Part shown: one piece after another, positions 12,382 through 16,893 of the stretch | How the letters are laid out: every line of letters starts with the position of its first letter | Numbering within the stretch: the stretch's first letter is position 1 | Source: a virus | Direction: 5' to 3' (one strand) | Virus record (IMG/VR): IMGVR_UViG_3300011258_000350 | Coordinates: 1-25,365 of that record | DNA length: 25,365 nt | Translations under genes and position numbers: made by a program | Notes under the pieces: generated by a model | What the model was told of the DNA's origin: nothing | Databases searched by the model: none | The model's input: only the letters and a program-made list of their open reading frames with translations

Positions 12382-15300
12382 ATGGAAGAAGAAGATACCC
12401 TCGCAAAATATCTCACGGCCCCTGATGAGGATAACACACCTGCTGCCTTCAACTTAGAACAGCAAGACGAAGAAGATACCCTCGCTAAATATCTTCCTAC
12501 TCCTGAAGAAAAGAAAGGCCCAGCAAAACCTCAGCGGCCTGCTGTTGAGGATGCCGTACCCGACTCGCGCTTTAGCATTTCTGACTTGAAGAAAGGGCAG
12601 AACGCTAGGGATATCCGTGCCTACATGGTAGATCGCATGGGCGTTGACTTTAAGGTGGGTCAAGGGCGTAGTGACGAAGAGGTCGTAGATGCTTTCGTAA
12701 ACCAGATGCGCTACTTCAACTCTAACATCGTGTCTACTGCAGGGGAAGCCCGCTTTATTGCCAATGCAGATGAGCAGACAAAAGCACGAGCAGCGCAGGC
12801 TTACAAGCTGTACGACAATCTGGGCAACCTGTTTACAGGTGATGCAGGTGAGATCTTCGACGGTATAGGTGATTACATCTACTCAGCAGCCACTGATCCA
12901 TCGAACTACGCAGGTATCCTTACCGGTGGTATGGCTAAAGCAGGTCTTCTCGGTGGTCAGCAAGCAGGTAAGGCAGCTGTTAAGGCTGCAGTACGGACTG
13001 CTATTAAAGACGTAGGCGCAAATACTGCCTTAAAGGGTGAGGCTAAACGAGCAGCTGGCAATGTCTACAAAGATGTACTCACGAGGGCTGCTTCACAGGG
13101 GGTCCGCCTCAACAAGAAACAAAAGCAGATGGCTTACGCAGCTGCGGAGAGGGAATACGCTCTCTTCATGCAGGCCCGTAAGCGAGCACTTAGTCGTGAA
13201 GCTGTGCAGCCTATCCTTAATAAGCGACGCACCAACGCCATCCTAGCTACTGCTGGTATAGACTCTGTATTTGCGGTACTTCAGGATGCTACGCTACAGA
13301 ACACGCTCATTGATGCTGGGGCGCAGGAGACGTACAGCACACTACAGACAGGTTTTAGCTCTCTCTTAGGCGGCGTTAGTGGGATTGGAGCCTTCGTAGC
13401 GCCTAGTGGGGCGAGAAAGCTAGTTGGCGAGTCTGGGCTTAAAGATATTCGTGATCAGGCTCGTATCAAAGCCCGTCGTGACGGCAACCTAGAAGAAATG
13501 GATACGCTTCTACGTGAGGTGTCTAGAAAGCAGGAAGCGCAAAAGGCAGCTGCGGACTTCAAGTTCACACCTAAACAGGCGAAGACAGCTGGGAGTAAGA
13601 TACTGGAAGTGTCCCGCAGCTGGAAGGATAAGGTTGATGCTGGTAAGGGGCGCTACAGTGGGTTCGAAACTCCCGTAGAAATTATTAGGGAAGTTTTGCT
13701 TGGCAAAGATGGCGACGGAAAAAGCGGGTTAGTCAAGATACTAATTGACGACGGCGTAGCTGTGCCAAAGGATATGCGTATCTCTGACTTCTTCACAAAC
13801 TTGATGCAGATGCTTCCGAAAGATCAGCTCAAGCAGATAAACGAAAACATCAAGGGCTTGGGTATTACATTGGGTGATACAACACAGGTTGCTACAAGCA
13901 TTGAGGATTTGTTTGCGAAAGAGTTAAGCCGAGGCGGTCAAGTTCTTCAGGTAGCATCTCAGTTCAGAAAATATCTGGATGCAGCAACTGTGTATGGGGA
14001 TCGTGTGATTAACGGTAGCATCACTACAATTAATGAGAAGGAAGCGATTGCCGAGAACATGAAGAGGGCCAGAGTTTTTGAATACGGACAAAACGTCTGG
14101 AAGCGTATGCTCGTGTCGTCCCCTGCTACTTCAGCGATTAACATAATCGGTGCAGCGCAGTACGGCATGGGCCAGTCTCTTGCTGATCTGTTTGCTTCTC
14201 CTGTACACTATCTAGCTGCGCTGGGCTACGGCTCAGTCGGCAACAAGGCAGCTGCAGAGCAGAACTTTAGGGCTGCTAAAGTGTACGCAGGAATCACAGG
14301 GCAGCGAATGCGTAACCTGATGGACCCCTACACGACTAAAGATGCCTACATGGCGTTCCTTGAGCAGAATAAGGATGTCAAGAAGATACTTTTTGAAACC
14401 CTGACAGGCGGCATTGAACGTAGTGGTAAGAGGTTTGGTATTGATCCTGAAGATCCGGCGTACTTACTTGTCGAGAGGACTACAGATGCAGCGTCCATGC
14501 TTACAGGTGTTCGTGCTCAGGATACCTTTACTAAGTCTCAGATGTTTATGACGGAGCTTGATAAGCATATCCGTATAAAAACCGGAAAGACGTTGCAAGA
14601 GACTTTCAAAGAGGGGGCTGTAGGCAGCGTTGATAACGATGTTATCGGACGTGCTGTTGACACTACGCTGAGGTCTGTCTTTTCTAAAGACTACACAACA
14701 GATGATCAACTTTTAGGCGGTCTTGCAAAGGGGGTTGAGAACTTTTCTAGCCTCCCGCTTGTCGGTACTATCCTGCCGTTTGGCCGCTTCATGAACAACG
14801 TGATTGCAACAACGTACCAGTGGTCTCCTGCAGGCGCTCTTAGTGTTATGTCATCCTTGTACAAAAAAGGACGCGGCTCAAAGCAACCTGAAAATATATC
14901 AGAAGCATTTGCTCGTGCTGCAGTAGGCACTACCGCCTTAGCCCTAGCAGCGGACTTCAGTAAAGAGCAGCGCGAAAAAGGCATGGGTACGTTTGACGTA
15001 GACTTGGGTAACGGGCAGATTCTGGATGCGCGTAACACGTTTCCGTTTTCCCTATGGCTAACTGCCGGTAGAATTATTGACCTTAATCGAGAAGGGGAGA
15101 TGGTCCCCCGCGAACTCGTTAAAGACTTTGCCGCACAGACTGCTGTAGGTCAGTTCGCATCAGATGTGCAGTTTGCTAATGACATATATAATATCATGGA
15201 TGTTGCCTTTAACGAGGATCGTCAACTAGGAGTATCTCTTATCGGCAGTGCTTTTGCTAAACAGGGTGGTAGTATTCTTGCTGGCTTTACCCGTCCGCTA

Positions 15301-15972
15301 GATGCGATCAACAGAATGACGGGTCTTATTGCAGGCTCCGACGTAGCGAAAGATCCCCGACAGGCAGAGGGCCTACAAGCTGGCACTATTCAGGCTACGC
15401 GATACGTGGACAACCTGATCGAAATCTTTACCGATAAGCTAGAGGGTGTTACCGGAGAAGAGCTTCGAGTAGCTACCCGTGAAGGCAAGATACAAGACCC
15501 TTCTCCTCTACTTAGCGTTATGGGGATCAAGCTAAAGCCTAACAGGACTTCTACAGAGAAGGCCTATTCTATGGCAGAGATGCACCCTTGGACTGCAAAC
15601 GAGAGGAGTGCCATACCTGCATACGACAAGATCTTTAACGAGGCCATCGCACCTGCGTTTGAGGACTCAATGATGAGGCTCATTCAGTCAGAAGAGTTTA
15701 AGAAAGGCAATGTAGCCCGACGTCGTCAGCTGTTAACCGACACAAAGAACGCATTACGCTCTGGCCTACGTAAGTACCTGCTCGTATCAGGTGATGAAAC
15801 AACATCGTTGATGGCTGCTCGAAAGAAGTTAATCAACAAAGGAGACAAGAACGTGCGCTATCAAGCCAAACAAATGATGCGGGAGGAATATGAAATTGAT
15901 GCAGACATACGAGATTATAGTGAGAGAGAACTCCGGCTTTACGAGAGCCTGATTGATTACTTAAAACCGTAA
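12382..15972 (+). CDS. Giant internal virion protein, probable DNA ejection protein
   Basis: At 1196 residues this is the largest protein of the window and the last gene of the + strand module, matching the place and size of T7 gp16-type internal virion proteins that line the ejection channel. The N-terminus has a duplicated motif EDTLAKYL (residues 4-11 and 31-38). Further on are alanine-rich helices (KAAVKAAVRTAI, about 190-215), a TDPSNYAGILTGGMAKAGLLG segment near 165-185 of the kind seen in large phage virion proteins, and several glycine-rich hydrophobic stretches (FSSLLGGVSGIGAFVAP, FSSLPLVGTILPFGRFMNN) that could meet membrane. No lysozyme motif was seen in it; that activity appears to sit in the 647-residue protein instead. 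The role is inferred from size, order and composition. Confidence 0.6.
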   Translation: MEEEDTLAKYLTAPDEDNTPAAFNLEQQDEEDTLAKYLPTPEEKKGPAKPQRPAVEDAVPDSRFSISDLKKGQNARDIRAYMVDRMGVDFKVGQGRSDEEVVDAFVNQMRYFNSNIVSTAGEARFIANADEQTKARAAQAYKLYDNLGNLFTGDAGEIFDGIGDYIYSAATDPSNYAGILTGGMAKAGLLGGQQAGKAAVKAAVRTAIKDVGANTALKGEAKRAAGNVYKDVLTRAASQGVRLNKKQKQMAYAAAEREYALFMQARKRALSREAVQPILNKRRTNAILATAGIDSVFAVLQDATLQNTLIDAGAQETYSTLQTGFSSLLGGVSGIGAFVAPSGARKLVGESGLKDIRDQARIKARRDGNLEEMDTLLREVSRKQEAQKAAADFKFTPKQAKTAGSKILEVSRSWKDKVDAGKGRYSGFETPVEIIREVLLGKDGDGKSGLVKILIDDGVAVPKDMRISDFFTNLMQMLPKDQLKQINENIKGLGITLGDTTQVATSIEDLFAKELSRGGQVLQVASQFRKYLDAATVYGDRVINGSITTINEKEAIAENMKRARVFEYGQNVWKRMLVSSPATSAINIIGAAQYGMGQSLADLFASPVHYLAALGYGSVGNKAAAEQNFRAAKVYAGITGQRMRNLMDPYTTKDAYMAFLEQNKDVKKILFETLTGGIERSGKRFGIDPEDPAYLLVERTTDAASMLTGVRAQDTFTKSQMFMTELDKHIRIKTGKTLQETFKEGAVGSVDNDVIGRAVDTTLRSVFSKDYTTDDQLLGGLAKGVENFSSLPLVGTILPFGRFMNNVIATTYQWSPAGALSVMSSLYKKGRGSKQPENISEAFARAAVGTTALALAADFSKEQREKGMGTFDVDLGNGQILDARNTFPFSLWLTAGRIIDLNREGEMVPRELVKDFAAQTAVGQFASDVQFANDIYNIMDVAFNEDRQLGVSLIGSAFAKQGGSILAGFTRPLDAINRMTGLIAGSDVAKDPRQAEGLQAGTIQATRYVDNLIEIFTDKLEGVTGEELRVATREGKIQDPSPLLSVMGIKLKPNRTSTEKAYSMAEMHPWTANERSAIPAYDKIFNEAIAPAFEDSMMRLIQSEEFKKGNVARRRQLLTDTKNALRSGLRKYLLVSGDETTSLMAARKKLINKGDKNVRYQAKQMMREEYEIDADIRDYSERELRLYESLIDYLKP
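12388..12494 (+). repeat. In-frame 26-bp direct repeat, 81 bp apart
   Basis: The 26 bases at 12388-12413 recur at 12469-12494 with one mismatch (A/T at the 18th base). The offset of 81 bp is exactly 27 codons, so both copies read EEDTLAKYL. The following codons also correspond (TAPDE versus PTPEE). High DNA identity points to a recent duplication or strong constraint. Confidence 0.85.
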
Positions 15973-15975
15973 TCA
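15954..15975. terminator. Inverted repeat across the convergent stop codons (weak candidate)
   Basis: TGATTAC at 15954-15960 and GTAATCA at 15969-15975 are perfect reverse complements with an 8-base loop, and the second arm contains both stop codons (TAA forward, TGA reverse). The stem is short and A/T-rich and no U-tract follows, so it is a poor intrinsic terminator by itself. It is listed because it is the only palindrome seen at the meeting point of the two transcription units. Confidence 0.2.
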
Positions 15976-16179
15976 CTTAACGCCATACTTCTCTACTGCT
16001 TCTCGCAACCACAGAAAGCTGCTAGTCAGATGGTCTCTGGCTAGCTCTACTTCTCTGCAATCCCACACATTACCCTTGATGAGGCTCTCTACTTCGTTGA
16101 TCTTCCCGCCTAGTGTACGTACAAACGCCTTACGCTTGCGAGTGACATGTTCTTGTGCTTCTTTTTCTAGGTGGTTCAT
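15973..16179 (-). CDS. Small helical protein, possible Acb2/Tad1-type hairpin
   Basis: The protein has 68 residues and is the last gene of the - strand unit. It is highly charged and predicted to be a helical hairpin: a first helix (about 1-36, KRKAFVRTLGGKINEVESLI), a short turn (KGNVWD), and a second helix CREVELARDHLTSSFLWLRE. The spacing RE-x3-A-x3-L-x5-W-x3-A[IV] in the second helix resembles the Acb2/Tad1 hairpin domain of phage proteins that bind cyclic nucleotides and block CBASS or Thoeris. This is pattern recognition from memory, not an alignment; a small DNA-metabolism accessory protein is the alternative. The Shine-Dalgarno sequence is weak, and only three bases separate it from phoH, so translation may depend on coupling. 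Confidence 0.75.
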   Translation of the reverse strand: MNHLEKEAQEHVTRKRKAFVRTLGGKINEVESLIKGNVWDCREVELARDHLTSSFLWLREAVEKYGVK

Positions 16180-16182
16180 ACT

Positions 16183-16893
16183 CTAGATACCTTCTTTAAC
16201 AAATACTTTAACCCACTCTGCGCAAATGTCGCTGCGCACAATGTCTTCAATACCGAACTCAACAATCGGTACATCCAGCATATGTTTCTTAGCTAGGTGA
16301 ATGATCTTAGACAGGCCGTCTGCCTCCTTAAGATCTGACTGTTGTACATCCCCGTTCAATACAATCTTACTGCCTTCACCTACACGGGTGAGCAGCATCT
16401 TCAACTCATGCGTTGTGATGTTCTGCGTCTCGTCTACGATCACGAAGGCATTCTCAAAGCTACGCCCCCGCATCAGTGCAAGGGGTGCCATCTCGATGTT
16501 GCCATTCTTTATGCCGGTATCTACAGAACCTCGTCCCATGTGGCGCACTAGGACGTCCAGCACAGGCAACGCCCACGGATACGTCTTCTCCTCAAGTGTA
16601 CCGGGTAGAAATCCTATGTCCCTCCCTACAGATACGTGAGGGCGAGTGATTACGATCTTGTCGATCTGTTTAGTAGTATAAAGATCTGACGCATATGTAG
16701 CAGTTACATACGTCTTACCTGTACCTGCAGGGCCAAGCACCAGTACCTGACAGCTAGCCTTCATAAAGTCCCACAGTTTTCGTTGGGATTCTGTGCGAGG
16801 AACAAAGGCTGACGTCTTCTTCAGAGACGCATTCTTGTAGTTAGTCTTACGCCGGGTACGTGTCTGCTTCTTAGGTGGTTCAAGATCGTTCAT
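16183..16893 (-). CDS. phoH: PhoH-like ATPase
   Basis: The 236-residue protein has a clear P-loop NTPase of the PhoH family: Walker A GPAGTGKT at residues 54-61, Walker B VIVDETQN at 151-158, and the sensor-like GDVQQSD at 181-187. The fold starts after a basic tail (KKQTRTRRKT, residues 8-17) that could bind nucleic acid. PhoH is widespread in marine phages; its role there is not settled, with RNA-related functions suggested and the phosphate-stress link uncertain. AAGGA lies six bases before the ATG. The gene begins inside the endonuclease VII gene (14-bp overlap), which supports the start chosen. Confidence 0.92.
   Translation of the reverse strand: MNDLEPPKKQTRTRRKTNYKNASLKKTSAFVPRTESQRKLWDFMKASCQVLVLGPAGTGKTYVTATYASDLYTTKQIDKIVITRPHVSVGRDIGFLPGTLEEKTYPWALPVLDVLVRHMGRGSVDTGIKNGNIEMAPLALMRGRSFENAFVIVDETQNITTHELKMLLTRVGEGSKIVLNGDVQQSDLKEADGLSKIIHLAKKHMLDVPIVEFGIEDIVRSDICAEWVKVFVKEGI

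Follow-up and report, generated by a model that had tools for sequence, protein, structure and literature searches.

A diverged Acb2/Tad1-hairpin-like protein family at the end of the early operon of putative HMO-2011-type phages

The virus contig considered here (25,365 bases, IMG/VR record IMGVR_UViG_3300011258_000350, referred to throughout as the window) encodes a small protein, P0001, that carries a sequence motif reminiscent of phage-encoded cyclic-nucleotide sponges. This raises the question of whether P0001 belongs to the Acb2/Tad1 hairpin superfamily and, if so, whether it is likely to serve as a counter-defence protein in the way that its better-known relatives do.

The gene and its place in the phage genome

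The DNA polymerase encoded in the window is most similar to those of Roseobacter phages CRP-603, CRP-2, and CRP-207 (67-69%), followed by that of Puniceispirillum phage HMO-2011 (57%). Based on this ranking we take the window to derive from an HMO-2011-type phage, a common kind in the ocean. The features that bear on P0001 are as follows.

12382..15972, plus strand: convergent large late gene (1196 aa), whose stop codon abuts the stop of P0001
15973..16179, minus strand: P0001 (68 aa), diverged Acb2/Tad1-hairpin-like protein without a recognised product name
15994..16056, minus strand: codons for P0001 residues 42-62, the RE-x3-A-x3-L-x5-W-x3-A[IV] part, inside the predicted second helix (residues 42-65 in the model made with the wide alignment)
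16183..16893, minus strand: PhoH-like gene (phrog_170, 1.9e-79), directly upstream of the P0001 ORF
16880..17281, minus strand: endonuclease VII-like gene

According to the ORF list and translation, the P0001 ORF starts with an ATG at 16179 and its stop ends at 15973 on the minus strand (68 codons). On the plus strand, the frame read across 15973-16179 is interrupted by three stops. Most compared pairs of the ORF are under purifying selection, with dN/dS values of 0.06-0.49 in 11 of 12 pairs and 0.82 in the remaining pair, which has only four differences. The stop of the PhoH-like gene ends 3 nt before the P0001 start, and P0001 is the last gene of the early operon. The initial annotation had described a 68-residue protein in this interval at the end of a DNA metabolism operon; the ORF is confirmed, on the minus strand, and so is its position at the end of that operon. 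Scans for promoters and terminators around the P0001 gene found none.

Relatives of P0001 were sought in both cultured and uncultured phages. A tblastn search of 50,697 phage records recovered CRP-207 gp38 (E 0.005), and from CRP-207 gp38 the search led on to CRP-2 and CRP-603. These three cultured HMO-2011-type roseophages encode orthologues (CRP-207 gp38, CRP-2 gp43, and CRP-603 gp43) that occupy the same place, share 25-29% identity with the window protein, and are recorded as “hypothetical protein.” Searches of IMG/VR added 42 loci of the family (L003, L004, and L011-L050). Our family alignment, A3, comprises 20 of the 25 distinct full-length family proteins, the window protein included; it omits five near-identical sequences (L031, L035, L037, L040, and L041) and three partial ones (L026, L027, and L036). 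The branch to which the window protein belongs contributes three sequences. One scan of genome contigs found no family member, and we therefore regard the gene as phage-borne.

The genomic context is well conserved across the family. An upstream neighbour (PhoH, endonuclease VII or, in one case, only RNR) was recognised in all 40 loci with a flank, and the same upstream slot is seen in CRP-207, CRP-2, and CRP-603; in the CRP-207 branch it is the endonuclease VII-like gene, not PhoH, that directly precedes the family ORF. Using the late proteins of the window and of CRP-207 as queries, we found relatives of the convergent late gene in the corresponding position in 30 of the 40 related contigs.

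Other small genes stand at the end of this operon in four more phages of the HMO-2011 type, CRP-1 (gp29), HMO-2011 (gp20), CRP-345 (gp38), and CRP-235 (gp20), and in CRP-13 (gp34). They were considered as members of the same family and rejected, as they gave no PF24729 match at E≤1. CRP-13 gp34 (L007:3215-3466) is an unrelated basic protein whose start resembles an AT-hook (PF02178, E 0.024, under the cut-off). A changeable last gene of the early operon would fit an accessory, host-facing role.

Two further observations concern the PhoH-like gene. The protein encoded at 16183-16893 has its nearest counterpart in the cobavirus Lentibacter phage ICBM2 (79.7%), and the DNA polymerase is of the HMO-2011 type; judged from these differing affinities, the early region of the window is a mosaic. 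Moreover, in CRP-2 and CRP-603 the PhoH match starts 150 and 141 bases, respectively, before the annotated start of gp42 (L005:2501-3214 and L006:2501-3205), and the annotated starts are therefore probably too far downstream.

Relationship to the Acb2/Tad1 hairpin superfamily

P0001 carries the motif R42-E43-x3-A47-x3-L51-x5-W57-x3-A61-V62, exactly the spacing that the initial annotation had given for the Acb2/Tad1 hairpin, and the spacing proves genuine in proteins of that kind. Among 67 distinct canonical hairpin proteins, 29 carry the exact string, against none of 1639 other ORF translations from the loci examined; the canonical count is partly built in, as that set was retrieved with the pattern T[KNE]LEx..W (T-x-L-E..W). 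The shorter core A-x3-L-x5-W-x3-A occurs in three of the 1639 translations, two of which, T4 Vs.4 and L062, are true hairpin proteins. The motif is a real signature and not a chance pattern.

The initial annotation had also proposed an HMM search, which found profile similarity that is weak for P0001 and consistent across the family. The best Pfam match of P0001 is PF24729 (Acb2_Tad1_hairpin; 15.4 bits, E 0.022), under the curated cut-off of 27 bits, and five other family members score 12.8-17.2 bits or not at all. For comparison, two undoubted hairpin proteins, P0016 and P0014, score 88.4 and 73.8 bits. In a member-by-member Pfam scan, PF24729 is matched by 18 of 20 family proteins (best E 0.0012), and any other model by at most three. 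Similarly, 17 of 20 members match phrog_1454 (best E 6.3e-7), the PHROG to which the same undoubted proteins belong (P0014, 123.7 bits; P0016, 113.4 bits); P0001 itself has no match to it at E≤1. For P0001 alone, PADLOC and NCBIfam yielded nothing, and PDB sequence searches with P0001, A1, and A3 found nothing relevant, the A1 and A3 profiles returning only sigma factors, ATP synthase b, a coiled coil and similar proteins, all at E>0.2. The kinship part of the Acb2/Tad1-like label thus stands, through the 18 Pfam and 17 PHROG matches; for P0001 itself the label falls under the Pfam cut-off.

Profile-profile comparison gives the same picture. Aligned by hhalign with eight canonical proteins, A3 (20 sequences) reached a probability of 96.4 (P 1.4e-9), and 97.2 in the run with controls, in which 300 column shuffles stayed at or below 7.6 and the reversed alignment scored 0.2. 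Because column shuffles break helical periodicity, more weight falls on the decoy and reversed controls; rotated alignments keep most of the domain intact and were not counted as controls. A profile of the sister branches matches the window protein from end to end (46.6 bits, E 2.9e-13). Outside the family it also picks up a true hairpin protein (30.6 bits, E 2.8e-8), the next decoy scoring 10.6 bits. The three window-type sequences are much weaker on their own: against an HMM of 68 canonical sequences they score 6.4, 5.9, and 5.7 bits, no better than decoys, vs. 13.3-22.1 bits for the sister branches, and hhalign with the window branch alone gives 61.2, or 11.3 without the canonical proteins L061 and P0011. 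The window branch thus appears to be linked to the superfamily mainly via the sister branch, by full-length match and synteny. Weak scores are to be read against the divergence of the superfamily itself, in which the two studied Acb2 proteins, T4 Vs.4 and p26, match each other in phmmer at only 18 bits (E 0.026). Judged by these comparisons, the P0001 family is very probably a distant homologue of the Acb2/Tad1 hairpin superfamily, the homology being seen at the profile level for the family and through orthologues for the window protein.

Several known proteins place this kinship in context. Acb2, the cyclic-nucleotide sponge of T4 (Vs.4) and Pseudomonas phage p26, is like P0001 a small phage protein with superfamily profile similarity. 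The P0001 core A-[KR]-x2-L-x5-W-x3-A-V aligns without gaps with A66-K-T-K-L70, W76, and A80-V81 of T4 Acb2, and P0001 is 20 residues shorter than the T4 protein (88 aa). The C-terminal helical hairpin of Tad1 (CbTad1) names the same Pfam domain. Tad1 also carries an N-terminal beta-sheet region, as described in the review PMC12043709; P0001, at 68 aa, lacks such a region and is predicted to be helix only in both AlphaFold2 models. The members of phrog_1454 are short hairpin proteins of Gordonia, Paenibacillus, Arthrobacter, and Streptomyces phages, and the group also includes gp61 of Curtobacterium phage Yotsuba, annotated as “cyclic nucleotide sequestering protein.” P0001 and Yotsuba gp61 have in common N-x2-D-x-RE-x3-A-x3-L-x3-F-[ML]-W-L, with 31% identity over 58 columns. 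Most phrog_1454 proteins have an FxYHxP-like start, a basic residue in helix 1, and T-K-L-E, whereas the window family has an LEKEAxxF start and an [HY]G[IV]K end.

Some of these hairpin genes are of interest in their own right. Yotsuba gp61 lies directly before gp62, annotated as nicotinate ribosyltransferase (L063:1117-2057), and the two are possibly a pair of counter-defence genes. Sulfitobacter phage phiCB2047-B (HQ317387) encodes a 188-aa “hypothetical protein,” SUFG_00048 (L009:2575-3141), in which a true Acb2_Tad1 hairpin (33.4 bits, over the cut-off) comes after a RyR domain (40.5 bits). This hairpin gave the only relevant match in our PDB searches, “Acb2 homolog 43” (9ptq, E 0.00027), and SUFG_00048 is a possible fused sponge in an N4-like roseophage. 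In the IMG/VR loci L061 and L062 the hairpin stands alone, without RyR, and in two others (L077:37-483 and L084:55-465) it is C-terminal, behind a domain of ~90 residues.

Ligand positions, conserved residues, and predicted structure

The residues on which cyclic-dinucleotide binding by T4 Acb2 is known to depend are not retained. For T4 Acb2, PMC12657218 describes the substitutions Y8A and F82C, with Y8A disrupting cyclic-dinucleotide binding and F82 stacking on the bound base, and lower binding is reported for T68M in PMC12657230. The positions of Y8, T68, and F82 and the basic residue of helix 1 are all replaced in P0001, which lacks the FxYH(xP)-type N-terminal motif and has the non-aromatic E63 in place of F82. 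In p26 Acb2, the positions of this kind would be Y11 and K26.

These positions were followed in A6, an alignment of 52 sequences (20 family and 32 canonical proteins), in which the retrieval pattern by itself enforces the invariance of the canonical proteins at positions 49, 51, 52, and 57 and leaves positions 24 and 42 free. At residue 49, the T68 position, the family has D, E or K (20/20) vs. T in 32/32 canonical proteins, the latter mostly built in by the pattern. All 32 canonical proteins have a basic residue at position 24, which none of the 20 family members shares, and R42 is found in 32/32 canonical proteins vs. 6/20 of the family, the window branch being among the six. Invariant within the family are instead E7, A8, F19, N37, E43, W57, G66, and K68, with H or Y at 65, and both chain ends are among its most conserved positions. 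Placed by alignment and predicted secondary structure, the invariant N- and C-terminal residues would share the open end of the hairpin, where Acb2 has Y8 and F82.

The predicted structure depends on the alignment supplied. With the 20-sequence family alignment, AlphaFold2 returned one helix (residues 3-65; pLDDT 85.9, pTM 0.39) and no hairpin; with A6, to which the 32 canonical proteins contribute, it predicted two helices (3-37 and 42-65; pLDDT 93.9, pTM 0.73). The hairpin is thus partly borrowed from relatives, as it is predicted only with canonical sequences in the alignment. Foldseek with the hairpin model gave no match at E≤0.001, and six CbTad1 chains appeared at ranks 4, 5, 9, 12, 15, and 18 (E 2-4). 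VIA-align with the same model gave no match at Z≥8 and no Acb2 or Tad1 chain among the 50 matches listed. For a two-helix model such fold-search negatives say little.

Possible roles in phage-host interaction

We see an even chance that P0001 represents a strongly diverged branch of the hairpin superfamily that acts in sponge-type counter-defence with an altered ligand pocket. Adding the slight chance of an ordinary Acb2, a sponge of some kind is a roughly balanced prospect. P0001 is not filed as Acb2, because it falls short of the curated cut-off and lacks the ligand positions. Starting from the observed gene, its conservation, its kinship, and its place, P0001 would be a small helical-hairpin protein, self-assembling into an oligomer like its relatives, that sequesters a nucleotide-type immune signal of the host early in infection and so may protect the phage from an abortive response. 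Its pocket would differ from the known one, the known contacts being gone and invariant E7 and A8, together with G66, K68, and H/Y65, standing at the chain ends. Such a sponge may be directed against CBASS or Thoeris. We give Thoeris no preference over CBASS, since nothing in the data points to it. The host context is weak: in the class of G001, a genome reached via an Alphaproteobacteria MAG, 14 of the 385 genomes sampled match the CD-NTase model PF18144, a figure for the class level and not for Rhodobacterales. A more specific form of the altered pocket seems rather unlikely: the scaffold would be kept, and E7-A8-(F/H)11 and [HY]65-G66-K68 would capture a signal that known Acb2 and Tad1 do not bind, which would suggest that pelagic alphaproteobacteria have a nucleotide-signalling defence yet to be described.

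The best-surviving alternative, which we hold possible though clearly less probable than a diverged sponge, is that the family descends from Acb2/Tad1 and no longer holds a nucleotide, the hairpin having become an oligomerisation module or a binder of a host or phage protein of the replication/nucleotide operon. Replacement of the known ligand positions and the fixed place at the end of a PhoH/endonuclease/RNR operon agree with this. However, the operon place is no argument against a sponge, because canonical hairpin genes occupy similar places: gp51 of Gordonia phage Remus adjoins thymidylate synthase, and T4 vs.4 lies in the early region. The strong conservation of both chain ends, the site of the known pocket, also argues against loss of binding.

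It is improbable that P0001 is an ordinary Acb2, holding cyclic di- and trinucleotides in the known pockets and blocking CBASS as T4 Acb2 does. The motif, the profile kinship, and the R42 kept by the window branch would suit this, but the protein scores under the Pfam cut-off and has neither the FxYHxP-type N-terminus, basic residue 24, T49, nor an aromatic residue in place of E63. Equally improbable is a chance likeness to the hairpin in the amphipathic pattern of a small, unrelated helical protein of the phage, as the one-helix model, the weak scores of the window branch alone, and the irrelevant PDB profile matches might suggest, but against which stand the recurrence of one Pfam model and one PHROG across the family and shuffled and reversed controls far below the real score.

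Judged by titles and abstract openings, the literature searched contains no description of an Acb2-like gene from these phages, and PMC9038755 nowhere uses the word CBASS in its text. If P0001 and its relatives are indeed sponge-type counter-defence genes, nucleotide-signalling immunity would press on the pelagic hosts of HMO-2011-type phages. Because purifying selection acts on a gene whose product has altered contact residues, the family would be a concrete place to seek new ligands, and it is open to testing, as three cultured phages on isolated hosts, CRP-2, CRP-207, and CRP-603, carry the gene.
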